In this document: positions 7,084-27,500 of the stretch, piece by piece
Numbering within the stretch: the first letter of the stretch is position 1
Layout: the number at the start of each line of letters is the position of its first letter
Assembly: GCA_018398765.1 (NCBI GenBank)
Contig: JAHBMJ010001223.1
Coordinates: forward strand, 1-27,500
Source: Chromera velia
Lineage: Eukaryota > Sar > Chromeraceae
Direction of reading: 5' to 3'
Length of the DNA: 27,500 nt
Made by a program: the position numbers and the translations under genes
Notes under the pieces: model-generated
Databases searched by the model: none
What the model was told of the DNA's origin: nothing
Seen by the model: the letters and a program-made list of their open reading frames with translations, nothing else

Positions 7084-10000
7084 ATGGCGGGTGCAAGTAA
7101 GATGTCCGCTGGCTTCTTCGGGGAAAACCGAATAGCTGTTGTATGTGCTGCTGCCGGTGCCTTGCTTCTGGCAGAGTACATCTACCGCAAACTGAAGAAG
7201 AAGCCCTCATGTCGGCTGGGACCCAAGCATGTCCCCTTCCTCGGTCACTTGGTCAGTCACAAGATCTTTCGATCGCCGATCCGATTTTTGCACGTGAGTG
7301 TTGTTCACTTGTCACCATACTTCCCTTTGGTTTCCTGCAGCCTCGTCTGCCTGAGATGATGCACCAGCGTCTGGACAAAATGGTGGACGACTTCGAGGAA
7401 ATGGGGGATGAGCAGACACTGACTCTGGACGCTCCCCTCATCCCCAGCATGGTCGTCACCATCGACCCCAAGAACGTCGACTGGATCCTGAAGGTGAGAG
7501 CGTTCTCTCTCTTTCGTCTGTGTGCAGGAGGAATTGAGGGAAGAGGGATGGGGGGGCTGATGCTGCACCACCTGAGCAAAGAGCGCCAGAGCATTCGGAC
7601 AGGGGCGGTCGTCGTCTCGAGTGCTCTCTCTTTTCGATTAATTTGTTGGCAGCACGGGGTGGGTGTAACGTAAAGATACACTCCCCCCCACATGAGCAGT
7701 TCTTGCCTCTACCACGCCTGAACGCTTCCTCATACATTACTCCATGCATTGCCTCTCCTCCTAGCTCTGTGGGGCTGTGCGTGTGCTTGTGTGAATGTGT
7801 GTGTGTTTCAGTTTCCGCTTGTGTATCTAAGTGTGCTTCTGTTTGTGTGCAGACAAACTTCGTGAACTATCCCAAGGGCTGGTACTTCATCAACGCCTTC
7901 AAGCAGCTCCTGGGGGACGGCATCTTCAATGCAGATGATGATAAGTGGAGTCAGTCAGTCACTCAGTCCAGTCGGTGAATCAGTAAGACAGTCAGTAAAT
8001 CAGGGATGCAGACGCAGACATGTTGACAGACAGGCACCCATCAGAAGTGATTTTCCTCTCTCCTTAGTCTTCTTTCCTCTGCGCTCTGTTCAGTTGAGCC
8101 TCCGTCGAAGAACCACCCTTCCTTCCATTTTCCTTCCTTGCACCCTTTTGCTTCTTGCTCGCTCTTCACCTGATGTCTGCAGAGGTACAGCGAAAGAGGG
8201 CTGCACCGATGTTCAGGTCAGCATGCAGGAAGGATCAATCACGGAAGGGAGTAGTTTCGGCTGAAGGAGTTATGGGAGGGGGGTAGGAAGGAAGGCGGAC
8301 CCGTTGAACATACTCAGGAAAGGACAAGATCAGGAGAGAGAAGAGAGATGCGCGGGACGTGGAAGTAAATTTTGCAGCATTTGATTTCTGCGGGGGGAAA
8401 GAGGGGAGAAGGCGGCATTAGACCCCGGTCACGAATTCTACAGCGTCCAACGTGTGTTTTGTGTTAAACTCGCGTACACTACGGCATTTCTTCATTGTGC
8501 ATCTCATGTTTGCCGCTCCGTGACTGCATGCAGTTTGGCAATGCTTCAGTACATGTACGAGAGTTTTCTCGTGCATGCGGAGGAGCTCCGAGAGATCGTG
8601 GTGAGTCCTTCAGGTTCAGTCTAGGTTGAGATGGGGGGATGTCCGGCAGTCTCACGGGAGGTGAGGGGGGGTGTGCCACACTGCAACTCTTTTGTTTGCA
8701 ATAAGCCTTTTGGTCTGGAGCAAGGGAAAAGGCCAAACACAACGCTGAGACTGTTCGTGTCAAGAAAGAGCCTTTCTAAGCAATGTGTGGGTTTTATGTC
8801 TATGTTTTCTGTTCCCTGGTGATGTGCAGGACAACGCAGCAGAGTCCGGGGAGGAGCTCGAGCTCTACTCTCTCTTCAACAGATACACTCTCACATGGTC
8901 CGTCGAGGCTATTTTTTACGTATCATCAGGAGGAATGGCAATAGTCTTTTTTTTTTCTCGCTTGCTTGCTGCTTTCCTCCCTTCCCACCGTCTTTCCCGC
9001 CAAACACATTCATATGCCGACCCATACAAGTGTCTTCTTTTTTCTCTCCCTTCCCATCGTGCAGCGTTGGAGAGATCGGATTTGGAGTCCAACTGAACTG
9101 TCTCCGAGATCCCAACCACACTTTCATGGCGGCATTTGACCGCGCCAACGCCGCTATTGAGTGCCGTTTGTACCACCCATGGTGGCCCCTCGAGAAGCTC
9201 TTCGGGTTTCCCCGAGAGAGACAACTGGCTCGGGACATCGCGACTCTGAACTCTCTTTCTCTCGACATTGTCAGACAGAGAAGACAACAGATTGCAGATT
9301 CCAACAACGCTCAGACAGAGGCCAGATCTGCACTCAGATCGCAGTCTATCGCTGAGCCTTCCCCTTCACACACGATGAGCAGACAGGCACAAAACCCAAC
9401 CTTCGGGGCCGTCTCCCGAAACCCATGTCTCACGGTCTCCCCCCCCACCTCCCCTGCCAGAGGAAACGCTCAAACTTCCTCAACAATCTCCTCTCCTGGC
9501 CAAGCCACCAGCACGTCTTCCACTTCCTCCCCCAGCAACCGTTTCGCAGTGCCCCCTCACATCAGTGTGAACGCCCCCAGATCCCCCACAGGCTCCGCAG
9601 CAGGCAACCCCAGCCCCACAGAGTTTGAGGACCCAGCAGAAAACCGAACAGTGCTCAGGGTCCCAGCATCTGCTGGCAGCAAACTCCGACGTCCCTCTCT
9701 GCCCTCCACACAGGGTGCCCAGAGCCTCCTTGAGGGTGCCTTGAAAGTGGGAAAGAGAGATTTCCTCTCTGTCTTCATGGTGGCCGATCCGAAGCTGACT
9801 GACGCAGAGCTGCGCGACATGGTCCTGAACTTTCTCATTGCAGGGAAGGACACAACCGGACAGGCCCTCAGTTGGACTCTGTACGAACTGATGAGACACC
9901 CTGAGTGTCTGGAGAAATGCAGAGAAGAGATCGCGGCAGTGAAGGCCAAGAACGATGGCTCCGTCCCTTTCGATGAAGCAAGGGTGGGTGGGTTCTCTTC

Positions 10001-10982
10001 TTTCTTCTTCCTTTTGCTTTTCCTTTTCTTCCCTCGTCTGTGTCTGTCTGAGGTTTGAAAAAGAGGATCAAAGTGTTTTCTCCTCGATGCCCCTTTTTCG
10101 TCCGTTTTCAGACTCTCTTGCTGCCTGCCTGGGTGTCTATACCTCTATCTCCCTGTCAGTTTGCCTGCCTGAGAAGAGGAAGATTCTCAGGAGAAATTGT
10201 TCTCTCACTTTTGCACATCTTTCTTTTTGCCTCTGTGTTTCTGCGTTTGTGCAGTCGGGTCTCCCCTACGTCACCGCGGTCCTCCACGAGGCCCTCAGGC
10301 TGCACCCCTCCGTGCCTTGGGAGATGAAGATGTGCAGGAAGGACGACACCTGGCCAGATGGAACCTTCGTCCCTGCAGGCACTCTGACGATCTTCGCTCC
10401 CTACGCTATGGGAAGGAACAAGAAGGTCTGGGGAGAGGACGCGAAGGAGTTCAAGCCCGAGAGGTGAGTGACCTGCAGCAATAGCTTCAAGAAGACAGGA
10501 AGAGGAAAATGAGAGCTTTAAATCAAGAGCAGGAAAGGCAAGGGGGTCGGAGACCTCCTGAAGGTGTGAGTATATAGTTGTATGTCTTCCATTTGCCCGT
10601 CCTCGGTCACTTATTTTGGTTATTCCTTCCTTCCCAAATTTGAAAACAAGTAGGCAGACATCGACATCGATGCTGCTTTGAGAATGTTGCCTCATGCCAA
10701 TGATGGCATGCGTCCCGATGGACCCCGGGGCTTCTTTGCTTCTTTCCCTCTTCTTGCAGGTGGCTGGCCATGAAGACCCTCCCCTCGTTCTCCGTGTACC
10801 CCGTGTTCCAGGGAGGACCCAGGGAGTGCTTGGGGAAGTACATGGCCATGATCGAGATGAAGACTGCACTCGCTGCTGTCCTCGACGCCTTCGTTCCGAA
10901 ACCCACCAGAGGTAATTCAGGGGACACGGACTTCTTTTGTCTCTCTCTCTCTCTCTTCCTCTCTATCTCTTCTGGTGTCTGT

Positions 10983-11021
<39 letters not shown>

Positions 11022-11216
11022 TGTGTGCATAGATGGGTGTGTGGGAGGGGCTTTCTGATGGTGTTTTTTGTTTTCTTTTGTTCACTTCTCTTTCTCTCTG
11101 TGCGTTGCTGTGTGTGTCTCTCGTCTGCAGACCTCTCGAAGGTCACTTACGGCAACGCGCTGACATTGAACATGGACCCCGGACTCTTCGTCAAGGTGGA
11201 GAGACGGGCAAACTAA
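7084..11216 (+). CDS. Cytochrome P450, CYP86/CYP704-like, ten exons, complete
   Basis: A membrane-anchored haem monooxygenase. The closest family flavour is the CYP86/CYP704 group, whose members hydroxylate fatty acids, so a lipid substrate is likely but unproven. Exons: 7084-7293, 7341-7493, 7853-7949, 8183-8216, 8534-8600, 8830-8897, 9065-9983, 10255-10463, 10760-10911, 11131-11216; all GT-AG. Total 1995 nt, 664 residues, stop TAA. The start has a good context (gaagccATGg). Seen: N-terminal membrane helix at residues 17-30 followed by Arg and Lys; C-helix WxxxR (W153, R157) across an exon junction; I-helix AGKDTT (469-474); ExxR (E528, R531); PERW (584-587); haem loop FQGGPRECLG with the ligand Cys609. 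Odd: a Ser/Pro/Thr-rich insert at about 289-430 just ahead of the I-helix, making the protein some 140 residues longer than usual. Exon 4 is only 34 nt and intron 1 only 47 nt. The plastid or ER location is not decided by the sequence. Confidence 0.93.
7775..7850. repeat. GT-rich tract in P450 intron 2
   Basis: An imperfect GTGT-rich stretch ending at the splice acceptor of exon 3 (7851-7852). It may act as the 3' splice-site tract in place of a classic pyrimidine run. Confidence 0.6.
10981..11031. repeat. (GT)n microsatellite in P450 intron 9
   Basis: A nearly perfect GT repeat about 100 nt upstream of the last exon acceptor (11129-11130), preceded by a CT repeat at 10938-10975. Confidence 0.85.
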
Positions 11217-12990
11217 GTAATGCAGAAGGAAGAAAGAACAAACTAAGTATTAATAATAGAACAGGGAAGGGGGGGATAGGGGTTTCTTGACTCTCGTTTT
11301 TTTCTTCTTCCGTCGGTCGGTCTTCTGGCCAACTCAATGAAGACTTTGGAGAAAAGAAACCGACAGAATTGACGGCGGTTGCTAGTACGACGGCACAAAG
11401 AATGAAGACGCGATTTTGCTTTTCCGCTGCGTCTTATTTACCCTCGTCTTCTTTCTAGCCCTCGTCTGTGTTCTTTTCTTTCCACTCCCACCTGTCCATG
11501 TCTGTACTTTTTTCCCATCCGTCTCGTTAGTCAACACGATTCCGCTTTCCTCTGCGAACTCAGTCCCTCTCTCATCTAATTCGATCAAAAGGAAGAGCAA
11601 ACCAGCCTGGTGGGTACGCTGGAGAGGAAACTGTTGCCTCCTGAATACAGTCCATCCATCCACTTCGTTCACACTACGAATAAGCGAAAGAATCTCTTCC
11701 TTCCAGATCCAGTGCTGCCTGCAGACTGACTAAGTAATTTCGTTCCATTGCATGTATGCATCCATTCACCATGAGTGAGTTACGTGATAACAAACGCCAA
11801 AGCAGACTCAAGGTCGTCTCTTTGGCTGGCGTGCATCCGTGATTTCTGATGTGAAAAGAAGTTTTGTATGTGACAATGTTGTATGCGTCGTTACAATGTG
11901 CGTGACATGTTTAATGTTCTCTCTCGATGGAATCCCTTTCGTGAATGGCGTGACTTGATTTGGGTTTCTGCTTTGTTTGTGTGTCCATTTCCTTAATTCC
12001 ACTGGTGGAGTTTCCGTCTGGCGGCTCTCTTCAGAATGAAGAAGTGAGTGTGCGTGTCCGATGTTCTTAGGGAATGTTTTAAATTCAGTCAAGTACATGA
12101 GTGGGTGCATGCATAGTCCTGCTTTTCGTGTTTGTGAATCGCCCGTTGAGGGAGTGAGCGCGGTGGTGCAAGAGAGAGAAAGGGCTTGAGGAGAGAAAGT
12201 TACTCCACGACCACCCTCATCAGATCGCACTCTTTATGCCTTTCTTTCTTTACCTATCACTCTCACAATCCGTTTGTGCGCTCTTTCTGGTTTGTTTCTG
12301 CGTCTGCTTCCACTTCAAAGGATAGACGACCTGGACAGACCGGCAGGAAGAAAGGACAGAAGGAGAAGCTTACCGAGTTGGATTGACTCTTTTGTTTCCC
12401 TCCTCTCTTTCTCTTTCTCTCGTACATCCGTCAAATCTTAATTCATTTATTCGTTCGCTCATTGCTGGAATGGGGAGGAAGGAACTCTTTGAGTTCAGTC
12501 AATTCTGTTTGAATAGGTTTGAGGGAGTCATGGTTTTGGGGAAAGAAAAGAGGGGAAGGGAGGAAAGAAGGACTATTAGGAATTTCAGCTCTTCTCAGGA
12601 ATTGAGAAACGGACAAAAGAGCAGACATGTGAACACACGCAGGTGCACATTCATTGAAGTGCAGGTTCTTCTCTCCGACTGCTTCAGTCTCATTTTCTAG
12701 CTCATTTTCATTCATTCATGCGCATTCAGATCGAAAAAAGGACCAACATTGTGTGGACTTGAAAGAGAGAGGGGGGGAGGCAGGTCTCGTATGCGGATTG
12801 CGTGAGCGAACGAAGACATGCAAGTCGCTCAACGTACATCCGCTCCTGGCTCCCTTCTTCTGTCAGCATGCCTGCAAAGTTTGAAAGTCTTACTAGAAAT
12901 GACCTCATATAGGAAAACGGGGGGGGGAGATGACAACATAGACGCCATGCATCCACGTACAATCGCATGCACCATCGATAGATTCGATGT
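11217..12990. other. 3' flank of P450, no gene seen
   Basis: CT-rich DNA with many short unrelated open frames on both strands. I see no family motif, no spliced coding pattern and no RNA gene. A small tetranucleotide repeat and scattered CT runs are present. It may hold the P450 3' untranslated region at its left end. Confidence 0.4.
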
Positions 12991-13500
12991 ATCTTTTCAT
13001 AAAAATTGAATATGTTAAGCTTTCATCTTTTAACTGCATGTATCTCCAATTTCATCTAGAAATATGTTTAATGTGCTTATAATATATATATTGTTCTGGA
13101 TGTTTAAAGTTGTTATATGTGCGTGTGTATCGATCTATAGATATGTATATGAGAGTTACTGTTAAACACATAACTCTAAATATGTGTAACTATAACTTAC
13201 GATCATGATGAAGTATGACATTCATACAATTTTCACAGACAAATTTTGACATTAGCAAACAATATAGCAAATAATTTAAATTCTAGTTTAAATTAAAAGT
13301 ATAAGCAATGAAGGGAATGTATAGCTACATTTATATTGACTCGTATTCTTGAGTCAAAAAATATATAGGAGGAATCTTGGTTAGTTTTAGATTTGATTAA
13401 TTTGCTAAAGCCTATAGTTAAGAACGTAGCTCATCGATACTTTATAGACACTGTTAAAAGTTTCATGTTAAATGATGAATCCCTAGTTTACCTAAGCTCA
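12991..13500 (+). pseudogene. Second AT-rich island with a gag-like fragment
   Basis: The DNA turns AT-rich here as at 2521-2940. From 13344 (just after a TAG) a plus-strand frame reads like protein: ESWLVLDLINLL, then NVAHRYFIDTVKSFMLNDES and LVYLSSEIH. The spacing Trp-x2-Leu, then a basic/hydrophobic helix, then a Glu-Ser/Tyr-Leu segment resembles the middle of Ty1/copia Gag. There is no ATG and no known continuation, so it is at best a remnant. It may belong to the same family as the fragment near 2788-2913, which would correspond to an earlier part of Gag. Confidence 0.25.
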
Positions 13501-14008
13501 GAGATCCACGCTTGTACATATACTCGTAAGTCTGGTCTCCCAGGAATGGTCTCGAGTTCACAGATCTCTCTAGTTTAGACCTTGATACACTCTCTCTATC
13601 TGTATTTCTAATTCTCGGTCGATCAGTCGATCGATCGCTCACGTGCACGTCTGGTGTGTCTGTATCCGTCGTATTTCATGTAATACATTTGTCTGTATGT
13701 CCCGTACATGACATGTTCTTTACTTTTCTGTCCACTCGTACTCAGCCTCTTTCAGTACTGCATTCTTTGTATGTATTTTCACGTGTATGTTACAATTTCC
13801 CGCATACATCATGCATGTGTTGCTGATAGGTACAATTCACTCAACGGCATGCGCAGATTGATTTAGACTGGTATGATGTTGCACGCACCTCTTCTCTCTG
13901 ACCCTTGATACCTCATCAATCACATCCTTTTTCTTTTTTTGCGGAGCGAACCCACTCTTACCCATTCATTCATCATTCCCATTCACAATCATTCACGCAC
14001 ATGTACCC
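13501..14008. other. Downstream flank of the copia element; LTR not demonstrated
   Basis: This stretch follows the 3' end of the minus-strand copia element, where a long terminal repeat would be expected. I could not match it to any sequence beyond the gag end (24300-24800), so no LTR pair is supported. A short palindrome-rich stretch (CGATCAGTCGATCGATCG) lies near 13620. Confidence 0.2.
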
Positions 14009-14302
14009 TCAGAGTCTTGTCTCTTCCGTTCTCTTTTGCCATCTTGCTTTGATTTGAGGTGCTTTCCTAACTATATTTGATCTCCGTTTGAGTTGCTTCC
14101 TTCGAACGTCTAGAGCGTTGACGCAGGTGAACACATGGACGTGGAATGATCTGCCCCCCCAACAGACTAAGCATGTTGCCTTTGCTCCGTTCTTAGGTAG
14201 CTTCTCTCCTTTTGATCTCCTGTTATCAGTTCTACTTCTCTCATCTCTGCAAAATGCTTTCTCCTTTATCTTCCCTTTTTTACCCATACCCCTTTTCTCC
14301 AT
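14009..14302 (-). pseudogene. Basic C-terminal tail after RNase H, uncertain
   Basis: An open frame starting with an ATG at 14302 overlaps the end of the copia Pol tail in another frame. It is very rich in Lys, Arg and Glu and matches nothing known. It could be the end of Pol after a frame slip in the A-rich sequence near 14280, or chance. Confidence 0.2.
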
Positions 14303-15323
14303 GCATTCCTTCCTTTTTCACCAAATCGATCAGTCATCAAGCTTTCTCCCTCTTCTTTGACTTTAATCCCTTTTGCAATCGCTTTGTAGTCAACCCGTTG
14401 TCTGTCCCTCAGTCCTTCTCTCTTTGCGCTCCTGCTTTGAATCTCAGGCATCTTCGAATCCACCTGCACACATGGCCATTCATCATCATCTTCTTCTTCT
14501 TTTTCTTTTTCTTCTCTTGATAAACCTGTGGATGTGTAGACTATCTGTGTCTGTCTGTCTTTCTCAAGAAGTGATACAATCAAATCCACATCCATTGGCT
14601 TTGTGAAACTGTCCACGTAGTTTTGATGGCCGTACACATGCTGTACTCTGATCTTCCCTTCTTCTATTCCATCTATTGCAGCTATTGCTGGAACTACACA
14701 CACTTTCCCCCCATGATCTCTCTTATTTGTTCAATCAAGTCCTTTTCCTGGGGCTTCGGGTTTCTAAATTTGAGTATCTTGCACATTCCATCTGAATCCG
14801 TTCGAATTATGCAATGCGAGTCCTTCCAGATCTCCTGAATGAATCTCATCATCACCAATGTGTAGTCAAACACATCTTCCAGTGCATAGAGTTCTGCCCG
14901 ATTGATACTCCTCGCACATCTCTTCTGTTTTCGACTCTTCCAAGCGATCGGTCTTCTAATCACGGTAAGTACCCAGCCTGTCTGTGGGTATGGATTCAAT
15001 TCGCTTCCCTCTGCTGCATCGTAATACAGAACCACTTCCATTCTCTCATGTAACTTAGGAGGGTCCGAAGTCGCCTGTCCATATTTGATGGCTCTGTTCA
15101 GAAGTCTCCATGCTCTAACGGTTGGCTTTTGGTTAAATTGACTCAGCCATGCGGATGCAAACTCGAGATCCGGTTTGGTACTGTGCGCTGTATAGGACAA
15201 GTCCCCTAACAACCGTCTGTACCGTCTATGTCCCTCTGCATCTAGCACCTCCGACCTATCATCTTCTCTCATCACCCCTGTTGGAAGAGGCATACTCTCA
15301 ACGTACGCTTTCTGAGAGCATCA
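14266..15323 (-). pseudogene. Copia reverse transcriptase end and RNase H
   Basis: Continues Pol after the in-frame TGA at 15321-15323. It includes MPLPTG, the thumb-like YRRLLGDLSYTAHSTKPDL region and the RNase H domain of Ty1/copia: Asp in YYDAAEG, Glu in SINRAELYAL, Asp in IRTDSDG, and the final HVYGHQNYVDSFTK, which matches the usual HIxGxxNxADxxTK. The frame breaks near 14699-14704 at a run of six C (six G in the coding strand); seven would restore it. A charged tail (EEKEKEEEDDDEW) follows and ends at 14266. Confidence 0.85.
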
Positions 15324-16526
15324 GATTCTTCCGTCTGAAAGGACCTCATAATCACTTCCAACATACCGACCTAACACCTCCGGCTCCTTGTAATGGACCT
15401 CTTCTGTAATCTCTTTCACCATCTCCTGTGCTAGCTCCTGTGTGTCCCCTTCCAACAAAACGATAATCAAATCATCAACGTACTGACTCAGCAACCCAAC
15501 AACCTTTCCAGGACCTCCCTTCTTTTTCCAAAACACCCTGCTCAACGGACTGAGCTCCTAACCTAGTTTCCTCAAAACCTCCCACAAATGGTCTTCAAAT
15601 GCTCTCCTTGCATCCTTCAAACCATACAGGGCCTTCTTCAATCTCCAGAGCAAACCTGTTTTTCTCTCGGGATGACTGGGAGGCGGTCTGACGTAGACTA
15701 GGACTCGAGACTTCAGCTTCACCTGGAGATAGGCATTCTAACAGTCTACGGAGGCAATTGAATTCTTTTTGTAGTTTGGGGATGCTAATGCTGCAAGCAA
15801 AACGAAATGAACAGAATCAGATGGGCAACCACACGTGGCGGTCTCCACACCCTGTCTTGGATCCTGGTTTCTTCTTACTACTGCTCTTGCCTTAAACTCT
15901 CTCTCTCCTTCTGCTTTCATCTTCAAAGTATCCACCACCAGCATGTCTAGAACAGTTGCTCCTGCGGGAACGTTCTCCTTCCTGACCGTGTCGTAGGTGT
16001 TGTACTTCATCAGCTTAGCTAGTTTTGCTCTCCTCACTTCGTTGCACTTCTTTCTCATCTCTGGTGTTAAGCTCCCGTACTTCACTTTCTGATGCGTAGT
16101 CTCTGTCAGTAGGACTCTTCCCACCTCTTGGTCTGAACAGAAGAAGGAAGACGTACTGATAAGAGAATCAAGAAACGAAGTAACGCCGGAACCTGACATT
16201 CTGTCTTCAGGCTCTGTAGACAAAACAAACTCCTTCTCTTCGATGTACTCTCTAAGAAGAGTACTGATCATGCTCTCACCTAGCCTCCCATTCTTCTCAA
16301 CCTCGGAGTCCGCGTCTTCAATCATGATGTCTTCTCTCTCCACCTCAAACAGATCTGGCTCCATTGCCCCGTACTTCTTCGTATTATTTATAAACATTAC
16401 CGCTCTCTCTCTTTTTTTCCTTACTGGAGGACGATAAAGCCGATCTCTCAATACTCCTTTCCCATACGACCTATAATGCTGCACAGTCACTCGCCCTCTC
16501 TTCTTTTCCTTCACTTCCCGGAATCA
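15321..16526 (-). pseudogene. Copia reverse transcriptase, with two in-frame TAG codons
   Basis: The frame starts after a TGA at 16524-16526 and is one base back from the integrase frame, which ends at 16511; an extra G in the local GGG run would join them. Reverse transcriptase motifs in order: DMLVVDTLKMKAEGEREFKA, RAVVRRNQDPRQG, SIASVDC followed by TAG (15738-15740) and NAYLQVKLK, YVRPPPSHPE, RLKKALYGLKDARRAFEDHL, TAG at 15558-15560, then the catalytic YVDDLI. These are the standard Ty1/copia blocks (DVxNAFL, KALYGLKQ, YVDD). Both stops fall where Gln is acceptable. Confidence 0.88.
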
Positions 16527-17863
16527 GAATCCCCCAAGAACAACTGCTTCGTCTTTTGATCCTTCCATATGATAAAATTTAATTTTTTTCCATCGGATCT
16601 CTTTCTTTTCTCCTTTTTTTTCTCTGCTGCCGAAGGTTCATTCTCCAATACCCCTCCAGGTTTTCTCAGCTCCTGCTGTAATTCTTCAGGCATCGGTTGA
16701 ATGGCCATCATAAAGAGATCCACCTCATAGGATTCATACCCCCTGTCTCTCTCTCTGATGGGTCTGATTCGAAACAGAGTCGGGGAAATAACCTTTACAA
16801 CCTCACCTGGCTTCCATTCTTCCTCCACCTTCCCGTAGTGATGGAGAGGGTGTTGGAAGAGAACTATCTCTGACTCCTCAAACCTCCTTCCCTTGAACTC
16901 CTCGTGACTCCTTCTCTTCTCTTTAATGCTAGCTGGGACTGGGCAAACCCCCGTAATCCTTTCATACGCAGACAAATACAGTTCTCTGGCTGCTGATATA
17001 CGGTTGACAAGAGCCACTGCTATGGGAAGTACATCTTGCCAATTTTCTTCTGGGATGTCTCTCTCAAGACGGAGAAGTGTGATCTGTGTGTCCAGAATGT
17101 AATGGCGGTTCTCGAGGATCCCCATCGACTGCGGGTGACCCACCAGTATCCACTCATGACTGATGCCCCTTATTCTGCACTGCAGATCAAACACCTCCTT
17201 GAAGTGACTTCCGTTATCTGTCTTAAAGCACGACCTTAAACCAACTGGGTAGCCAAAAGGCGTAATCCAGTGATCCCGCACTGCCTTCCATACCGTTGCT
17301 GCGTCTTCTCCCTCTACTGGCACCGCCACCAACCACCGAGTGCATTCATCAATGATGGTAACTATCGGGGTCCCTTCAATGAAGTGAAGGTCAACTGCAA
17401 TCCTTTTGAGTGGTCTCTCTCTCCTCAACCTTACTGTCCATCCTCTCCACCTGTGTGGAGCTCCTTTTATCTGAGCACATTCCTTGCAACCCTCTATCAT
17501 CTTTCTATATACCTCCCTCAACCGACTTCCCTTGATATACTTTGAAAGCGATCGACTGAGAGCTGCGCCTCCTAGATATCCCATCTCCCTATGTGCTCTC
17601 TGGACAAGCTCTTCCAACTCCTTTCCTTCTACCCGTATCCTTTCTCTTTTATGTGAGCACCCGGGCCCTCCTGTCTCAGATACAGATGCGTCGTCTCTGC
17701 TATCTATCCCGGATCTCGTTCCCCCTCCCTCTCCTGGATTACATTCATAGTCCCTGCAGACCCTGCCGTTCTCCACCCTGGACCCGGCAGCCGAAGCCTT
17801 CGCTTTCTTTTCCTTCTTTTTCCTTGAGTCCTTTTTTCTTCCTTTTCTTTCCATCTTTCTTAT
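16511..17863 (-). pseudogene. Copia integrase, open frame of about 450 codons
   Basis: Numbering starts at the ATG at 17854 (447 codons). The zinc-binding region has H88 and C123/C126, but the second His of the usual HxxxGH is Tyr93. The catalytic core has D155 (AVDLHF), D213 (KTDNGSHF) and E248 (HPQSMGILENRH), so the DDE triad is intact. The C-terminal part includes EEWKPGEVVKVISPTLFRIR, typical of the integrase tail. No internal stop occurs, unlike the flanking parts. The frame is entered from upstream by a -1 shift at the A run 17863-17869 and is left at a TGA (16511-16513). Confidence 0.88.
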
Positions 17864-17869
17864 TTTTTT
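17860..17869 (-). promoter_or_regulatory. Possible -1 ribosomal frameshift site (A_AAA_AAA then TAA)
   Basis: In the gag-protease frame the codons read GGA AAA AAA TAA. The seven A (17869 down to 17863) form a perfect X_XXY_YYZ slippery heptamer, and the stop is the next codon. The integrase frame is exactly the -1 frame and is open from this point. A one-base loss from a run of eight A would give the same picture. Confidence 0.35.
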
Positions 17870-20013
17870 CCTTCCGTTTGTTCATTCTCCGACTGCCTTT
17901 CTGTCTTTTCTATCTCATTTGAATCTGACTGAAGGCTGTCTTTTTGAACTTGCTGAAGCGATTCCCTAGGCTCCGTTAAACTCTCTCCTCCTCTTTCGTC
18001 CTCAATCCTGTCTGCAGGTGTCAAAGAGGGATCATTGGCAAAAGAAGGGTCACAATGGTCGACCTGGCGGCTACTGCTGCTGCTACTGTGACTACAGGGC
18101 CTCGGTGGAGGCTCCTGCGACGCTCGTTCCTTCTTTGCCAGACGCGGCGATCTCCCAACACCCCCTTCATCTAGACTGTGGCCACTCCTTGAGATGTCAA
18201 GAGCAGATTCTGAAGGATGTTTTATGCACCCCTTTTTCTATTCCTTTGTTCTGGTGGCATGCTCTTTCAACTCTGTTTCGAAGGGCCGCCCTTTCAGCCT
18301 CCCGGTCTCTTTATCTAGAAACCGACCAGAAACTGTCTCCCAAAAAGTCACTCTCTTAGTCCTCCTTCTTTGAGAACCCACAAAATTTAATGCCTCATCC
18401 ATCATAATTCCTTCTCCCAGACTCTCTACAGACTGACGTGCCTGTGTTTCTTTCTGAACGCAACCTGCCCAAAGTTTCTTCCCACACGCACCGGTCTCTC
18501 GACGCCGCTCCTTCTATTCTCCAAAAATCACTTCACGTGGAACGACGACCTCTTCCCCTGTTGCTGTGTCAGTCAAACTGTGGATGTTTAGGCTGCTCCC
18601 CCCAAGCTTGCCAGAGACGGCAAAGGACGCTCTCCTTGGTTTGACCAGAAGAGTCAAGAGTCCACTGCCCTTCTTCTGCCATTTGATGGTATATTTGCGC
18701 CCATCTGGAAGGCACAGTCTCATCTGTAGGGTCTCGTAATCCATTTTTATCCCCTATGCTTTCAGAAATTTCATCCCGACCAGAGGAAGAACGATGGCGT
18801 CCGTATCTAGAACCACCATTCGTGAAGACAGCAAGATACGATTGGTGAGGTGAAGGCCTCCCTCCCAAACCCCAACAATTCCAACCATTCCATTTGCTGT
18901 CCCGATTCTTGGCCCTCTGTCTTTGTCATGCTTCTACAACCACCTGCTTAGCGTGGACAAAGGGAACAATGCCATGGCAAGTCTCAACCAACCCATCGAT
19001 GTCGTGATCACTCTAGTGCTTCCCGAATCTTTGACCACTCCAACCAGCTTGGACTCACCCAGAGGAACCGTCTCTTTCTCCTCTGCCATCTGCAGGGCTG
19101 TCTGTACGCTCTCACTGGTGACTCCCCAGAAAGCGTAGTCCTCCGCCAAGAAGTCTTCCCCCCTCTTCTCCCCTGTCGGTGTCTTTTGGGTCTCATCTTC
19201 CTCTTCATTCTTCCTTTGGTGTCTCTTCTCCTTTCTTGTCGCCTTTTTCCTTTCCTCTTTCTCTGTGTTGCTTGGTAAAGCCTTCTTGTCATTCTCTTTT
19301 CTTTCCACCACCTTCTTTTACTTGTCTGTATATGTGTCTCTCCTCTCTGATGTGTTTCTACTTCTCTCATCTGTTTTTTCTGTCTGACTCTCTCTACTTT
19401 TATGTCTTTCACTCACTTTCTCACTGTCCTCCTCGGTCTCTGTGAAAAGAACGGTAAAACTGCTTAGGGAAGAAAAACAGGGCTGAACCTTTTTCTCTTC
19501 TGACAGTCTACTCACCTTTCTCTTCGAGACAGGGATGCGAAAATCCTTCTAATATTTCTTAAACTTTTCATGCTTTTCTGTATCACCCTTCTAATCAAAT
19601 TCAAACAGCCACATGACTTCCTCTGCAGATGGTTCTTCCATTTCTGTGTCAGTGCTGATCTGCGTGCAACTGCCTGTGTCCATCAAAGTATGAAGAGCTA
19701 CACACGTGACCAGAGCAGATAAAATTGGAAGAAAGGAGCACGCAAAGAAAAAGAGGTTGAAAACTATAAGAGGAAAGACAGAGAGGCTGGCTTGCTCACC
19801 GTTGTTCTCGGTCTAGAAGTTCTTGCTCTGCTGCTCGGGTTGGCGACTCTCCTGTTAGCGATTCCCTGCGTTTCCTCCTCCACGGTTGGAAGAAGAAGAG
19901 GAGTGCTGATCGGCATTACCGCCGATTCAAGAGTCGGAAGCCCCTCCTCCTCTGTACCTACTGCCGCCCCGTCCATACCCTCCTCTGCCACTTCTGCATC
20001 CTCCACGCCCTCA
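17860..20013 (-). pseudogene. Copia gag end, protease and linker, riddled with stops
   Basis: A single minus-strand frame continues from the gag stop at 20011-20013 to 17860 and is protein-like throughout. First comes an RGG-rich stretch (GRGGCRSGRGGYGRGG). Next is an aspartic-protease active site near 19690-19670 (ALHTLMDTGSCTQI; the DTG is the catalytic motif). Then a long Lys/Glu-rich linker, then a second block with KDSGSTRVITTSMGW, RMVVLDTDAIVLPLVGMKFL and MRLCLPDGRKYTIKW. Stops inside the frame: 20011, 19927 (TGA); 19855, 19318 (TAA); 19813, 19591, 19549, 18934, 18754, 18514, 18238 (TAG). Which of DTG or DSG is the true catalytic site is unclear; the first matches the family better. Confidence 0.65.
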
Positions 20014-20449
20014 ACCTCCCGGTCTCCTGTTCCAACTCTGCTGCTGCTGCATCTGTTGATGCTGGGGATACTGAGGCTGTTGCCTCTGCTGCTGCTGTTG
20101 CATTCGTTTCCACTCTTCTTGGGAAACCATAACATACCCTTCCTTGTTTCCCCTTCTCCTCTGATCCGGGAATGTGGATGTGAAGTACTTTGCAAATATC
20201 GTGCGAAGAGCCTGCCAGGACAGTGTCCTGTCTGCGATGTCTCTGTCCAACTCGACTGCAAGCATCTCTGACCTGCAGTTGTCCTTTGAAGTCATATAAA
20301 TCTTGGTGATGATGGGCAGGCTGGTGGTGATATTATAGTAGACAACTTTGCCCGTCTCCCCTGATGGGCAGGACGCGTCGGTCTCAAAGATGCCGTTAAG
20401 CTTTCTTTCGGGCAAAGGCACCTGACCTAATTCGATCATCAACTTCTCC
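20011..20449 (-). pseudogene. Copia gag, C-terminal part
   Basis: Begins at the edge of the inserted DNA transposon and continues KLMIELGQVPLPERKLNG. It includes LSWQALRTIFAKYF and ends in a Gln-rich tract (QQQQQRQQPQYPQHQQ) and RRPGG before TGA. The frame joins exactly to the N-terminal part at 23885-24297 once the insert and one copy of the CTCC duplication are removed. Confidence 0.75.
20446..20449. repeat. Target site duplication CTCC, left copy
   Basis: CTCC occurs directly outside both inverted repeats (also at 23885-23888). A four-base duplication is what remains if one copy is host (gag) sequence. Confidence 0.7.
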
Positions 20450-20493
20450 AACTGACTGTACTGACAATTGAAACTTTTATACTAGAAAGTGAC
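20450..20493 (+). repeat. Left terminal inverted repeat
   Basis: 44 bp. It differs from the reverse complement of the right end only at repeat positions 30 and 35 (A here, G at the other end, read in the same sense). Confidence 0.9.
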
Positions 20494-22090
20494 TTTTAAT
20501 TTTCTATATATCACACTAAATTTTTTATAAAAAACTAAGTCTTTAAAGCACTTAGAATGATTCTATTTATTGTTTCTTACCTGTATGAAAGTATGAACAA
20601 CTTTTAAAGATAAGGTTTAATGGGTTTGTGGTGTGTATGTTGGAAATTGTTGGACGTGAGTGAGGTGAAAGAGTTACAGTATGTTGATATGTCGGGGAGT
20701 GATTGTAGACTCTGCAGGCATGTGACAATGCGCAGTGTAATGCACAAACAAGCTAACTTTTACTTCTAATGAAATACGCCGAATCCGCACACTGATGTAA
20801 GGAGGGAGTACACAGCGGGCAACCCCCATGAAAGGTAAGAATGAATGTCCACAAACAGATCTGCCGATTTGACACCTACAGAAAGCAGTTCAACCAAACA
20901 AATGTTGAGCACTATGACCGTGCAAGAGGTAAATGCTTAGCTTCTGAAAGCCTGATCGATCCATGGCCTCTAGCCAGAGGGCCTTGCCCACGACTGGCCA
21001 TCATAGCGTTCTTGTTTTTTCTGGGTGAGGCCCGGCACTGGCCACTGAATCTTAGTCCACCCAGGAGCCCTACCTCCAAATTCTTATACAAACAAGAGCT
21101 GCGCCTTACTCTCACAACTTTAGATCACCCGAGATTACCAGCCATAATGCTTCCTCACGAAACCTAAGCACCGATAAACGGTCCTTCGAGAAAGGCTCAG
21201 TCTGACCTACAGCACAGATATGCAAAAATTCATAAAATGGCTCACCTTCTGGCCACCCAGAGCTGGCCCCCTCATCCAGAAAGCCTTTCCAGCTCCTTAT
21301 CTAGAGCTTGTTAGAGCCCACGCATGGAAAGGATTTAATAGAAGCTTTACTGGGGCAACTTTGTAGGCCCCTTTGCGTGGAGACGGGCCGTGCCCTTCGT
21401 GATGAAAGATCGAAATTGCCCTCTCAGGGCAACCAGTAGAGTGAATGTCATAATTTAAAACCCAAGAAAAAGTAAAGAAGCCAATCCTCTGGGCTTTCGA
21501 TAAAGCCTACTTTCATTGCTGGAGAGCAAGTCTGTGTGATGGGAGAGAGGCGGCACTAGGTGGTGCTCTGATCGACTTGAAACATTCGACGGAAAGCCGA
21601 TTTTGGGAGCCGATTTTAGATCGGCCAACCATGTGACGGCCCCGGAAGGCAAGCTACGCGTTATGGGCCAGGGCCCGGCCGGCCACCAAGGCCAAAAAGC
21701 ACTTTCTGGCTGCGCGCTGACCCATGCATCAAAATGCCGATCTGAAAAATTCTCAGTCAGGTCGTCAAAAAGTTCTCCTCCACTCAGAAAGTCGGGTCAA
21801 CAGAATGGGCCTCTATCCACAAAATCTCGTTGTTAAGCATTCCATTGGATTGTATTGGAAGGCTTGACAATGATGAAATCGTGTTTAGCTTTTTATTCCA
21901 GAACCTCATTTTTGGAGGGGTTACAGATTCTGGAGTTTTTTCCCCCTCCGGTATCTGTATTGGCTGGACACCTCTGGTTGCTCATGGGAGTGGTTGCCTT
22001 GGTGCAAAGGAGTTGTCCGACAACTAGAAGGGTTGACAGACTGGTTTGGATCGCTCAATCAGGTCAGTTCGTTTTGTGTCGTTCCACCAG
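20494..22090. other. Left interior of the nested transposon, no gene recognised
   Basis: An AT-rich subterminal part to about 20640 is followed by mixed DNA with several short plus-strand frames of no recognisable family. A GC-rich stretch with GGCC palindromes lies near 21660-21690 and repeated GCCGATTTT near 21597-21620. I see no transposase motif and no tRNA. Confidence 0.4.
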
Positions 22091-22096
22091 CAACAA

Positions 22097-22257
22097 GGGG
22101 GGGGTGGACCCTCTCGCAGGGGTACGAAATTGGGCCGCTTCGAACACTCTTAGACACATTTTGGATGCAAACCTGCAGAGTAGGTCAGACCCCCCCCTTC
22201 CACCAGGGGTACGAAATTGGCCCGCTTCATACCCCTGCGAGAGGGTCCACCCCCCCC
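22097..22257. repeat. Perfect 28-bp inverted repeat enclosing a 25-bp direct repeat
   Basis: 22097-22124 (eight G, then TGGACCCTCTCGCAGGGGTA) is the exact reverse complement of 22230-22257. The 105 bp between them include two direct copies of a 25-bp sequence starting CAGGGGTACGAAATTGG, at 22117-22141 and 22204-22228, with one difference. A hairpin or cruciform is expected. Confidence 0.9.
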
Positions 22258-22292
22258 TCCCAGTGAGGGAATGGAAAAAATCTTGTTTGCAG

Positions 22293-22537
22293 AGATGAGC
22301 CTTCTTGGTGCATGCAGAAGGCTTTGTACGATGTCTGTGAGTGTTCCTGTATAGCTGCAACCTGGCCATTATGGTTTCTGAATGACTGACCGGTCTGCCC
22401 TCGGCAAGGCACAAAACTGCCGTCTCCCTTTGCATGTGTTGCTCACCCCTGCCCCCCTTCTCTGCTCTTTGCAGGTCGTGGATCTCCTTCCAAAGACTTT
22501 TGTTTTGTGTTTCAGTCCATCTTCGAGTCCCTCAGAG
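22293..22537 (+). other. Two exon-like segments inside the transposon
   Basis: 22293-22336 and 22475-22537 each follow a good acceptor (cttgtttgcag; ctctgctctttgcag) and precede a good donor (GTGAGT; GTAAGT). Joined, the phases agree and the reading looks like protein: DEPSWCMQKALYDVC, then RGSPSKDFCFVFQSIFESLR. No flanking exons are assured and no family is recognised. It could be a captured host gene piece or part of a spliced transposon gene. Confidence 0.3.
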
Positions 22538-22624
22538 GTAAGTCTGTGCATTTTCATTACGGCCGCAGTCTTCAGACTGCGAAAGGGAGCAGCGCCCCTA
22601 CGTGCCGAGCCTGTGTTTTTTTCT

Positions 22625-23345
22625 ACCTGCCTAACTGCCCTTCTTGCCTGCTTGACTGCCCTCTAGCTTTCGGCCTTTCTGTCTAGCTAAATGCCTTCCC
22701 AATTTTAGCCTTTCCACCCGCCTTATTGCCTTCCAAATTTCGGCCTTTGCCGCGCTCCCAATTTTGGTCTTCCTGCCTGCCCGATTGCCTTCCCAATTTC
22801 GGCCTTCTTGCCTGCCTGACTGCTTTCCAGAGTTTTGCATTCCTGCCATGCTGACTGCTTTCCCATTTCGGCCTTCTTGCCTGCCTGACTGCCCTCCAAA
22901 TTTTAGTCTTTCTGTCTGTTTCAATGCTTTCCAAATTTCGGCCTTTCTGTCTGCCTGACTGACTTCGCAATTTCGGCCTTCCTGCCTGTCCGGTTGCCTT
23001 TCCAATTTCGGCTTTCCTGCCTGCCTGATTGCCTTCCCTATTTTGGCCTTCCTTCCTGCCCAAATTTCCTCCTAACGCTTCCTAATTTCGGTCATCCTGC
23101 TTGCTCGATGGCCTTCCCAATTTTGTTCTTCCTGCTGGCCCGACTGTCTTCCCAAGTTCGGCCTTTTTGTATGTCTGACTGCCTCCCAGAGTTCGTTCTT
23201 TCTGCCTACATGTCTACCTTCCAATTTCGGTCTTCTTGGCGGCCTGACTGCCTTCCAATTTCGGCCTTCCTACCCGCCTGATTGCCTTCCCGATTTCAGC
23301 CTTCCTGCCCGTCCGATTGCTTTCCCAATTTCGGTCTTCCTGCTT
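22625..23345. repeat. Diverged minisatellite, unit about 36 bp
   Basis: About twenty degenerate tandem units of the type CTTCCTGCCTGCCTGATTGC followed by CTTCCCAATTTCGGC. The unit is close to 36 bp, so the minus strand has long open frames of a 12-residue basic repeat (such as GRQAGRKAEIGK). The variation between units, the occasional length changes and the lack of start context argue against a gene. Confidence 0.85.
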
Positions 23346-23496
23346 TCATGTATCATTCTGATGCAAATTAAAGATACAGGTTGTGTTTGCATGCATGCTT
23401 TTATGTGTATTCTGGCGATTCGACTGACTTTCTGTTTGTGTGCACGTATTTCTGCAGGTGGCGTTCACGGGTGTGCATGTTTGATATAAACTGAGA

Positions 23497-23498
<2 letters not shown>

Positions 23499-23534
<36 letters not shown>
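23499..23534. repeat. Run of 36 C
   Basis: An uninterrupted homopolymer of 36 C, all within the nested transposon. It can form an i-motif on one strand and G-quadruplex on the other; its true length is doubtful in any assembly. Confidence 0.9.
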
Positions 23535-23535
<1 letters not shown>

Positions 23536-23840
23536 TTGAGCAGTGCCTCATATGAATTGAAAACAAAACAGTTATGATCATGAGAAGAAATGCTTTAATC
23601 AGATCGATTCAGAGCCATTCAGATGCATTTCTTATTGTGTTTTCGTCTTAGCGTTAATTTACGATGATAGGTACCAGACAATTTATGGTTTTGAAAAAAT
23701 ATATACTCTATATATACATTTTTTTATTTCATTTTTTAAACATCTTACTAAGCTTAAATAGTCTTAAATAAAGTATGAAAATCAATTAGTTTAAAGGTTA
23801 AACTATCTATTTTAATGTTTTAAAAACTAAATTTTTTAAA

Positions 23841-23884
23841 GTCACTTTCCAGTACAAAAGTTTCAATTGTCAGTACAGTCAGTT
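23841..23884 (-). repeat. Right terminal inverted repeat
   Basis: 44 bp, the reverse complement of 20450-20493 with two differences. CTCC follows at 23885-23888. Confidence 0.9.
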
Positions 23885-24297
23885 CTCCGCGTCCCGGATC
23901 CAGTTGGCAAAAGGCATATCACAAGGCCTCATGCGGTTGATGTAGGTATACTAGGGGCTCTTCTTGGATTTGAAGATCTTCCACGGGTCCTTTGTGCCAT
24001 GAGTCTCTAAGTAGGCAAGGAGACAGAAGGGGTCCTGTTTAAATTTTTTGCTGCTTTTAATTCCATCAAAGGCCATGTCCATGGTGGAGAGTATATTCTG
24101 GACGATGGTGGTTAAGATGTAGTTGTAAATCAACTTCTGAAAAAGTTGGCAGCCGCTGCTGCTCTTGTTCAAAAGGTTAGTGTCCAGACCCAAGATGTCC
24201 ACCGCCATCTTCAGGAACAGCATCAGCGACTTCAAGGTCAGTGGATCCTTTTCGTCCACCTTTCTGCCTTGAAGTGTTTCGTGACCAAGACAAATCT
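23885..24297 (-). pseudogene. Copia gag, N-terminal part
   Basis: Open on the minus strand from a TAG near 24297, with one internal TAG at 23951-23953. It reads DEKDPLTLKSLMLFLKMAVD, then LIYNYILTTIVQNILSTMDM and KKFKQDPFCLLAYLETHG, and ends MRPCDMPFANWIRDAE at the insertion point. The helical pattern fits a retrotransposon Gag N-terminal domain. No ATG opens this frame; a neighbouring frame has an ATG at 24343 and runs to 24253, so the true start may be lost by a frame slip. Confidence 0.6.
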
Positions 24298-24360
24298 ATC
24301 CCGAACGGTCTCCAACAGTAAAACGGTCTCCAAAACAACCATACCTTTCAAGCTTTTTTA

Positions 24361-24767
24361 GGCAGTAAACAATATTTAAAAGCTTAAAACAAAGAGTTTT
24401 AAGCGATCAAACAGTACGATTTCCTTTTTTCAAATTGGGTTTAGTGAGAAAAAAAAATATATTGTGTTTGACCGCGCGGCGTGCGTGTTTCGTGCGTCAG
24501 CGCACGCGCCTGTCATACATGCAATTAAGGCGGCGGCGGGGAGCACCAGAATTTAAAATCGCGCGGATCGATATCGATTAAATCAAAGAAGCTAATTTTA
24601 ATACATGTAGATGCAGCTGAAGGACGCGGTTGCACTTCTATGCACATTGAGCTCATTGACAAAGATGATCAACGTAATCGACTAGATCGACGCACACTGC
24701 ATATTTATCTCTGCACATTGTGGGACTGTGGATCTGTTTCAAAAGTGTTCACTGCTGATGTTTTCAG
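24361..24767. other. Upstream flank of the copia element
   Basis: AT-rich to about 24470, then a GC-rich, CpG-containing segment (24470-24570). It contains a perfect small hairpin, GCTTAAAAC (24382-24390), loop AAAGA, GTTTTAAGC (24396-24404), and a palindrome GATCGATATCGAT near 24566. No LTR or tRNA primer site is recognisable and no gene is seen. Confidence 0.3.
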
Positions 24768-25700
24768 ATCAGGTTGCACGGTATTTCAAATAGAATAGCT
24801 GGATTCTTCACATGCCATTGGGAGAGCGGAGGTTGGAACAAACCTCAGCCGTCTCTCTTCTTTGGGCATGGCCGTCTTGTTCTGCTAGTAAGCATGGTGG
24901 GTAAATTTGGAGAGGCCCGTCTTGCTCTCCATCTTTCATCGACGTCTTTTTTCTTTTGTGTGCCTCTATGCATGCGCTCAAGCTCTTACTTTCTTTACCG
25001 GGGGAACTGGCACTGTTTTCATTTTCCTTCTGGTGAGTTTGAGGTTCCGTCTCCCACCGTCTCCTCTCAGATCGACGTGTACTAGCTAGCCTTGACAACT
25101 CGTTGCATTATATCAGGCATTGGCCCACCTTTGTCCAAGCTCTCAAACTTCCGTATCTTCTTGCTATGTACCTGCAGACAGGATTTAGGATTCTCACTAG
25201 GCTGTTTCGGGGATCCAGAGGGGCCTTCACGTGCTCTCCGGTAAGTTCATCAGTTTGTTTGTCTCAATGCTTGCAAGCCGTTCCATCAGGTCAGAGCATG
25301 ATACACCTCAGACCCTCCTATAGAACTTCATCCTTTTCTTGTTCGGTGGTTGCACGCAGGATTTGGGACTACTTTTTGCCTTTGCTGAGGAGCTAGGGTT
25401 GCTTTCGCCATTCTTTTTGTGAATCTACAGTTCCGTCTCTCTGTGTGGGTCAGTGCATGATGCACTGTTGAGCAGATGTTTGCCTTGAACCATCGTTTTT
25501 GGCTTTGTTGCCTCTTAGGGATGTGATTGAATGCAGGTTTCGTTCCTTTGATCGTACTAAGGAGCAGCACTTGGGGTTCCATCACGGTGTGACGACCGTC
25601 TCTCTGGGTCAGTGGTTTGTTTTCATTCGGTCCCTATCAGTTGCGTCATTTTGTATCCGTGTCTGTCAGCAAAAATCAGTTAAAGATAGTTAAAGGCATC
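24768..25700 (+). other. Run of exon-like segments with splice signals, gene unidentified
   Basis: 24768-24887 (120 nt, 40 codons, after acceptor gttttcag and before GTAAGC) reads IRLHGISNRIAGFF, then CHWESGGWNKPQPSLFFGHG. 25178-25240 lies between ctgcag and GTAAGT. 25360 onwards follows acgcag. 25537-25586 lies between atgcag and GTGTGA and reads FRSFDRTKEQHLGFHH. Together they suggest a plus-strand spliced transcript. I could not make one consistent frame across all of them and recognise no domain, so the model is incomplete. Confidence 0.25.
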
Positions 25701-25859
25701 CAGTAGGTACGGTATAGAAAGAAAGAAGAGAACTTATGGCAACCTGGGAAGAGGCAATGGAAGGAGGGGAAGGATGCTTGTCCTTGCTTTCCATTTATCT
25801 CCCTTTGAATGTGCTGCTTATCTGCCTGTATTCAGGTCTGCTTTCTGTCTTTGAGACTG

Positions 25860-26300
25860 CATGCCGGCACCAGCCCCGGCCCCGACGTGTGAATCCCGGG
25901 GGAGATAGAAGGCAGAAGAGGGGGCAAAGGAGTGAGAAGGAGAGCCTCAGGGCGGATTAAGAGAGTAAACAGACCGGAGCGCTGGCGGGGCCGGGGGAAC
26001 GTCCATCGATGGAGGCGGGGGCAAGGACGGGGACAGGGGTGGGGGCCGGGCCCAGGGCCGGGCCATGCCGCGGCCCAGGCTGGGGCCGGCGGCGTTACAG
26101 GGAGAAATTAGAGGGAGCAGAGAAACGCCAGCTGGAGGGAGCGGTGAGACGTTTGGGCCGAGTAAATGAACGTCTGCGACTGGCAAAGGAAGCCGGGGGC
26201 GATCGGGGCCTAGCCCGGCCCGGGCCGGCGGCGTCATAAGGGAGCAGGGCCAAGGCCGGCGGCGTCACAAGTAGCCGGGGTGGCCGATACCCGCCGGGAA
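25860..26300. repeat. GC-rich patch with GGCCGGCGGCGT repeats
   Basis: A strongly GC-rich stretch with nested GGCC/GGGCCC palindromes. The 12-mer GGCCGGCGGCGT occurs at 26084-26095, 26223-26234 and 26254-26265, each followed by a similar (T/C)A(C/T)A tail. A plus-strand frame from an ATG at 26009 gives a short Arg/Glu-rich helix but no known family. Confidence 0.6.
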
Positions 26301-26483
26301 AGACACAGACAATCTGGAGACTCGAAGAGGTCGGTGGGAGAAATTGGTGGGGAGTTAGGGCATAAAAAGTGGATTGCCTAGCTTCGCGAAGGGCATCGGT
26401 AGAAGCTGCGCTGTTCTTTTAGGCCCATTCCATACTTTGTGTTCCACCTATCCCTCTCGGATTATGTGAAAAAAATATTTGGC

Positions 26484-26915
26484 GAGGGAGAATTCAGGGC
26501 TGAATTCTCCCTCAATGAGTATCTGAAAAAAAATTTTTGGAGGAAGAATTTTTTTTAGTGTTTTTTCTGGCTTCTTTTACCGAAATAAGTCATCTTTTTT
26601 TTGCTCTCTCAACAAATATTTTTTTTTATTGTCACCGAAGGAGAATTCAGGGCTGAATTCTCCCTCTCTGGGTATGTCAAGGAAATATTGTCCGAGGGAG
26701 AATTTAGCCCTGAATTCTCCCTCAATCAAAATGCGAAGGATTTTTTTTTCCTTCGTACCATAGAAAAGAGATGTGCTTTGGATAAAAGATGTTTAGGATA
26801 GCATTCATCTTGATTGAAATCGTGCCAACTGCTTTCTTTCTCTCCTCGCAGCTCTTAATATGCAGCACTTTGAGCCGCTTCACTCGAGGGAGAATTTAGG
26901 CCTGAATTCTCCCTC
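26484..26915. repeat. Array of four 30-bp palindromes
   Basis: Copies at 26484-26513, 26637-26666, 26694-26723 and 26886-26915. The consensus is GAGGGAGAATTCAG, two variable bases, CTGAATTCTCCCTC: a 14-bp stem with a two-base centre (GG, GG, CC, GC). Copies 3 and 4 have T for C at stem position 12, which still pairs as G-U in plus-strand RNA but gives an A-C mismatch in minus-strand RNA. Copy 2 has GAAGG in place of GAGGG. AAATATT precedes the first three copies closely. Confidence 0.9.
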
Positions 26916-27030
26916 GGTAACAATACGAAGGATTTTTTTTTCTTTTGCATCACAGAAAAGACATATTTTGTGAACAAAAGGTATTCGGGACAGCATTCAT
27001 CTTGTATGGATTCATGCTACATATTCTTTT
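26694..27030 (+). repeat. Diverged tandem duplication, period about 192 bp
   Basis: The segment from palindrome copy 3 (26694-26885) and that from copy 4 (26886 onwards) are alignable for about 150 bp. Shared blocks: GCGAAGGATTTTTTTTTC or its variant, AGAAAAGA, and AGCATTCATCTTG. Between them the sequence has drifted. The first unit also holds a small hairpin, CGAAGGA, T run, TCCTTCG. Confidence 0.75.
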
Positions 27031-27500
27031 TCTGTTCTTAATCTGCTTTATTGTGGGCCGTCTCGGGTCAGGCATCAGGGTTGCACCTTGCGCGCCTCGT
27101 ATTCTCTGCTTATGCATATTCAGAAAAAAGCAGCTACATTGTTATAAAACCTTTTGAATTCGTTTTCTAAGGCTTTAATTCTTTTCTCATCTGCCTGTTT
27201 CTGTGCTTGATATATCTATGGATTCTTCTTCATATGTGTGTCTTCTGAATATGAATGCAGTTACGTCCACTTCGAGGTGTGTGGAGGGACCACCCCAGAC
27301 AGCCCCTCTAGAAAATGGGTTCAGAGCTCATCCTTTATGTCAGTGGCTTGTACTTGGTCTGCCAGGCTCTGGAGCTCTAGGCTGCCTTTTTGTTGACCAT
27401 TTTGATTTCTTTTTTGAGTCTTTCTCCATCTCTACACGTATGTGTATCTAGGTGTATACAACGCTAGGTGCAGCATATGTGACACTGTGTGTGTGTGTAT
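27031..27500. other. Right edge, no gene recognised
   Basis: Mixed T-rich DNA. After an acceptor-like tgaatgcag (27252-27260) two overlapping plus-strand frames stay open for 100 or more bases, but neither resembles a known family. A GT repeat begins at the last bases of the window. Confidence 0.25.

Follow-up and report, generated by a model that had tools for sequence, protein, structure and literature searches.

A 3.4-kb insert with inverted ends, very probably a non-autonomous DNA transposon, in a decayed copia-type retroelement of Chromera velia

What kind of sequence interrupts a reading frame of the copia-type retroelement in this 27,500-bp stretch of Chromera velia DNA (contig JAHBMJ010001223.1, positions 1 to 27,500; hereafter, the window), and did it arrive after the retroelement was in place? 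The interrupting segment, referred to below as the insert, is bounded by inverted ends and a short direct repeat (Table 1). We consider it very probable that it is a non-autonomous class II DNA transposon, of the cut-and-paste type with terminal inverted repeats (TIRs), that landed in a copia-type retroelement present there beforehand. On this view, a transposase supplied by another locus would recognize the 50-bp inverted ends, excise the element, and insert it at a staggered break in the target, after which gap repair would leave the flanking duplication, CTCC (or TTCTCC). We infer movement in trans, an autonomous partner together with its kind, and DDE chemistry. The nested insertion itself is real, well bounded, and ordinary in kind. 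Nested non-autonomous elements are common, and this insertion alone alters no general view; it offers a clean case, resolved to the base, of a mobile element sitting inside a second one, and its defined 50-bp end is a handle for seeking an autonomous partner.

Table 1. Coordinates of the insert, its internal repeats, and the interrupted retroelement in the window
Feature	Position	Strand	Remarks
Insert (very probably a non-autonomous DNA transposon)	20450-23884	.	3435 bp; GC 0.47 overall
Left terminal inverted repeat	20450-20499	+	50 bp; starts AACTGACTG; 47/50 complementary to 23835-23884
Right terminal inverted repeat	23835-23884	-	50 bp; plus-strand end is CAGTCAGTT
CTCC, left copy of target-site duplication	20446-20449		Within longer direct repeat TTCTCC, 20444-20449
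CTCC, right copy of target-site duplication	23885-23888		Within TTCTCC, 23883-23888, overlapping the final TT of the insert
Foldback hairpin	22096-22258		About 163 bp; outer arms 50 nt, 82% complementary
Minisatellite	22756-23343		35-bp unit; 16.6 copies; 70% matches
Unbroken run of 36 C	23499-23534		Length in the assembly may be unreliable
pol of the retroelement	14266-17881	-	Integrase core, then copia-type reverse transcriptase; several frames
Presumed gag frame downstream of the junction (KLMIELGQ...)	20011-20445	-	144 codons; stop at 20011-20013
Presumed gag frame upstream of the junction (...WIRDAE)	23885-23950	-	22 codons after in-frame TAG 23951-23953

Inverted ends, target duplication and empty site

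Aligned locally, the inverted ends score 85; when the two 501-bp end regions were shuffled 300 times under a first-order Markov model, the score averaged 20.5 and never exceeded 33. The first-pass annotation had described 44-bp inverted repeats with two differences; these are real, but the repeat runs longer, with 47 of 50 positions matching and differences at positions 30, 35, and 48, two of them within the first 47. Composition also shifts just inside both ends, which supports an insertion: the guanine-plus-cytosine (GC) fraction is 0.24 in the first 150 bp and 0.22 in the last 150 bp of the insert, and, with the insert divided into 22 bins of 150 bp, 0.41-0.59 in the 20 inner ones. The last of the 22 bins (insert positions 3151-3300), which ends 135 bases before the end of the insert, has a GC fraction of 0.27.

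While the coordinates first assigned to the insert and to both CTCC copies proved exact to the base, the claims that the duplication is 4 bp long and that the boundaries are fixed to the base held in part. CTCC does stand on both sides, but the perfect flanking direct repeat, which sits at the inverted-repeat boundary, is the 6-bp TTCTCC. Because the insert itself also ends in TT, the duplication read from a single copy is either 4 or 6 bp; the empty site is fixed, whereas two bases may be part of either the element or the duplication. A 4-bp duplication of CTCC with symmetrical AACTGACTG ends is the simplest parse. It is unlikely that the duplication is truly 6 bp, which would place the element at 20450-23882, give it two extra bases at one end, and point to a 6-bp superfamily (IS3EU/GingerRoot or a Polinton relative). 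The perfect direct repeat spans exactly those 6 bp, and under either parse a single chance match of two bases (about 1 in 16) has to be assumed. However, the longer duplication would make the ends of the element unequal, and the insert carries no integrase domain recognizable by Pfam in six frames. Among superfamilies with 6-bp duplications, the available part of PMC10045372 gives the ends TA..TA for IS3EU and TA..TA, occasionally TG..CA, for GingerRoot; the insert ends AA..TT or AA..AG and has none of these termini. Separately, a hAT-like 8-bp parse, TTCTCCAA against TTCTCCGC, was dropped on hand inspection, since two substitutions are needed.

Removing 3439 bases (the insert and one copy of the duplication) brings WIRDAE to KLMIELGQ in frame on the minus strand, where 60 bases of the joined flanks read MPFANWIRDAEKLMIELGQ; this reconstructed empty site is identical under the 4-bp and 6-bp parses. 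The duplicated target is retroelement sequence, and the insertion is therefore younger than this retroelement copy, in agreement with the nesting and order that had been proposed from the letters. As for the statement that removal restores the gag frame, the join is indeed in frame, but an intact gag is not regained: the target is at present a stopped frame, because of the TAG at 23951-23953, which is preceded in the upstream flank by 114 open codons.

Two further explanations bear on this junction. (i) The segment might belong to the retroelement as an intron or introner and not be a disrupting insertion, which we regard as very improbable: some introners, for example in Symbiodinium microadriaticum, do have 4-bp duplications and inverted ends in the part of the literature available to us, but the insert read in the gag direction opens AAC TGA in frame, and because no GT precedes this TGA, GT-AG splicing would retain the stop. 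(ii) An assembly artefact, namely a chimeric join, appears extremely improbable. The run of 36 C and the minisatellite inside the insert would suit such an origin, whereas matching inverted ends, a bordering duplication, and an in-frame empty site are unexpected from a chimera.

Coding capacity and interior of the insert

Ten open frames of at least 100 codons lie wholly inside the insert, five of them in the minisatellite part; the other five, scanned singly, gave no Pfam family at cut-off (three were empty, and two had matches far below cut-off, to ArsB and Pectate_lyase_2, each with E 0.21). Nor was there a Pfam family at cut-off when all six whole frames were scanned with stops written as X and E up to 5: five were empty, and the sixth matched PRIMA1 over a short length (E 0.047), its 13.9 bits lying below the cut-off of 38.6. 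The longest open frame, at 155 codons, falls between the control median of 142 and the 95% point of 206 (n = 300), and one open frame of 153 amino acids had 0 matches among solved structures. The earlier observation that the insert holds no transposase is thus borne out, in that none is recognizable in six frames with Pfam models and frame lengths are chance-like.

There are two other accounts of how the insert arose. It is doubtful that it was once autonomous and is now so old that its transposase has eroded past recognition, as opposed to a derivative that never coded for one: its 3.4 kb are long for a miniature element and its interior GC is like that of the flanks, yet the ends are still 94% alike and no trace of a transposase appears even with stops read as X. 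A Pack-type element, in which AT-rich ends surround captured host DNA (here, the interior with its minisatellite and foldback), is somewhat easier to entertain but still not probable. The compositional change just inside the ends and the GC fraction of 0.467 for the whole insert versus 0.485 for the flanks fit such a capture; against it, no family reaches cut-off in the interior, and the insert shares with the rest of the window ten similarities of 14-30 bp each (best E 0.006). A non-autonomous transposon remains our preferred description.

Several repeats lie within the insert (Table 1). The region around the foldback hairpin (22090-22265), folded as DNA, gives a z of -8.27. The foldback contains two direct copies of CAGGGGTACGAAATTGG and is possibly a miniature element nested in its own right, though its edges showed no clear duplication. 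An AT-rich palindrome at 20515-20540 (E 0.010) was dropped as a candidate, as 25 of 500 properly controlled shuffles equalled it, compared with 1 of 500 when the strands were shuffled apart. Eight comparisons looked for further copies of the end motif close to the insert ends, none with a convincing outcome: the observed score was attained in 49 to 423 of 500 shuffles.

The interrupted retroelement and its surroundings

The retroelement around the insert is identified by its pol region. There, an rve integrase core (E 9.7e-07; score 29.4 against a Pfam cut-off of 32.6) is accompanied by a weak Integrase_H2C2 match (E 0.0071) and by an RVT_2 piece (E 1.8e-07; score 31.4 against a cut-off of 31.6), and the integrase lies upstream of RVT_2, which is the copia order. 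The frames that flank the insert are on the same strand as rve and RVT_2 and upstream of both. Between the presumed gag and the integrase core, the same strand encodes KDSGST (19015-19032), which we take to be a protease-like motif. From this position and order, the interrupted frame appears to be gag. Comparing 11000-15000 with 23885-27500 revealed no pair of long terminal repeats, with just 11-21 bp matches (E 1.8 or more), which suggests that the copy is truncated or old; the interrupted element is a decayed copia-type copy. Pattern searches for relatives of its integrase returned 66 stretches in viral contigs (IMG/VR) and 377 in GTDB genome contigs, with 0 confirmed in either set.

Several observations weigh against a non-autonomous transposon lodged in a copia gag. 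The target frame carries a stop 22 codons upstream of the junction, and a frame would be kept by chance alone in one case of three. No gag family was found at the Pfam cut-off for four gag-region pieces, the best matches below cut-off being Cmr7A (E 0.022), Sgf11_N (E 0.12), NSP2-B_epitope (E 0.063), and DUF7496 (E 0.043), and a search of the minus strand of 17000-25500 turned up no CCHC zinc knuckle. On the side of the insert, a transposase beyond the Pfam models, or one interrupted by introns, could have escaped the scans. Lastly, the window shows one copy of the insert, and we saw neither another insertion nor an empty allele or an autonomous partner.

Elsewhere in the window, a palindromic unit like GAGGGAGAATTCAGGGCTGAATTCTCCCTC occurs to the right of the retroelement in four spaced copies (49 nt; 26482-26932), three of which are 73-82% identical to the reference copy. 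A proteasome alpha subunit piece lies on the minus strand at 4818-5252 (Pfam E 1e-16; the best solved relatives are alpha-type chains) and perhaps extends, by eye, to about 3698 (3698-4246). Two cytochrome P450 pieces on the plus strand at 8823-10467 (E 1.2e-20 and 6e-17) are presumably exons of one gene, and the eukaryotic-type genes of the window that occur in pieces are presumably intron-split. A 448-codon open frame on the minus strand (855-2201) resembles no Pfam family, with matches admitted up to E 0.1. Rfam at gathering score gave 0 matches, and ARAGORN 0 tRNA genes.

Copies of the ends and likeness to known superfamilies

To what family, then, does the insert belong? Within the window, every 30-mer away from the insert's own ends differs from them by at least 12 mismatches. 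In IMG/VR viral contigs, the end sequence was sought as a 29-mer, as a 19-mer, and as a 23-position pattern (one N), each with 0 matches, and a 28-position end pattern likewise had 0 matches in GTDB genome contigs. A 16-mer of the end matched six stretches in viral contigs, three of which (L002, L004, and L006) show an identical 50 bases; outside the 16-mer, 9-13 of 34 left-end positions match, and the six look like chance-level matches. Since IMG/VR and GTDB are viral and prokaryotic, these blanks have little bearing on a family of eukaryotic elements. The PMC texts searched did not contain the end letters either, by which the family is not shown to be undescribed; the undescribed family that the first-pass annotation suggested is thus at most a candidate. 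The available part of an Ectocarpus paper contains no element with these ends (PMC12477816). It seems quite unlikely that ends beginning AACTGACTGTACTGACA and a 4-bp GC-rich duplication mark a family, possibly a superfamily, with a transposase undescribed in the host lineage.

The superfamilies piggyBac and Kolobok duplicate TTAA. The insert, flanked by CTCC, lacks this Kolobok target. For piggyBac, the available part of PMC10045372 gives CC..GG termini with a 4-bp duplication, and these termini are not those of the insert.

The remaining comparisons likewise hold for those parts of the cited papers that were available. Ginger1 and Ginger2 have 4-bp duplications and TIRs of about 40-270 bp and 50-180 bp, respectively, with TGTNR ends and the targets CCGG or CCGT (Ginger1) or AT-rich RTATAY (Ginger2) (PMC2836005). 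The insert resembles them in TIR length and, if its duplication is 4 bp, in duplication length; it differs in its AACTG ends, in its CTCC target as opposed to CCGG/CCGT, and in having no integrase-like protein. In some IS481EU families, according to parabasalid data, duplications are also 4 bp and TIRs mostly shorter than 50 bp, with termini TGT...ACA in Histomonas families and TGT in Banshee (PMC10045372); the insert reads AAC...GTT and so departs from the Histomonas type.

Sola2 has a 4-bp duplication, its examples showing AT-rich duplications (AWWT; ATAT, AAAT, ATTT) and TIRs of 12-21 bp (PMC3627910), while Sola TIRs as a whole range from 11 to 1124 bp (PMC10741241). The duplication length of the insert fits if it is 4 bp, although CTCC is not AT-rich and the TIRs are longer than in the examples. 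No Sola transposase was found in the insert with Pfam in six frames, a lack expected in any non-autonomous copy. For AcademX, the duplication is 3-4 bp (PMC10045372), which the insert again fits if its own is 4 bp; it holds no protein, and this comparison is by duplication length only.

A duplication of 4 bp is by itself ordinary, since it also occurs in Ginger and Sola2, in some IS481EU families and, within a range of 3-4 bp, in AcademX. Sola2 and AcademX remain candidates; a superfamily assignment is beyond the reach of one copy. In Repbase practice, a non-autonomous element is assigned to a superfamily by an equal duplication length and an alignment of positions 1-11 with one mismatch allowed, and unclassified non-autonomous DNA transposons receive general names such as DNA-1_YY (PMC4455052). 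The insert, with TIRs and a duplication and without a transposase, is like the members of that unclassified group, in which a family with these ends would be placed until classified.

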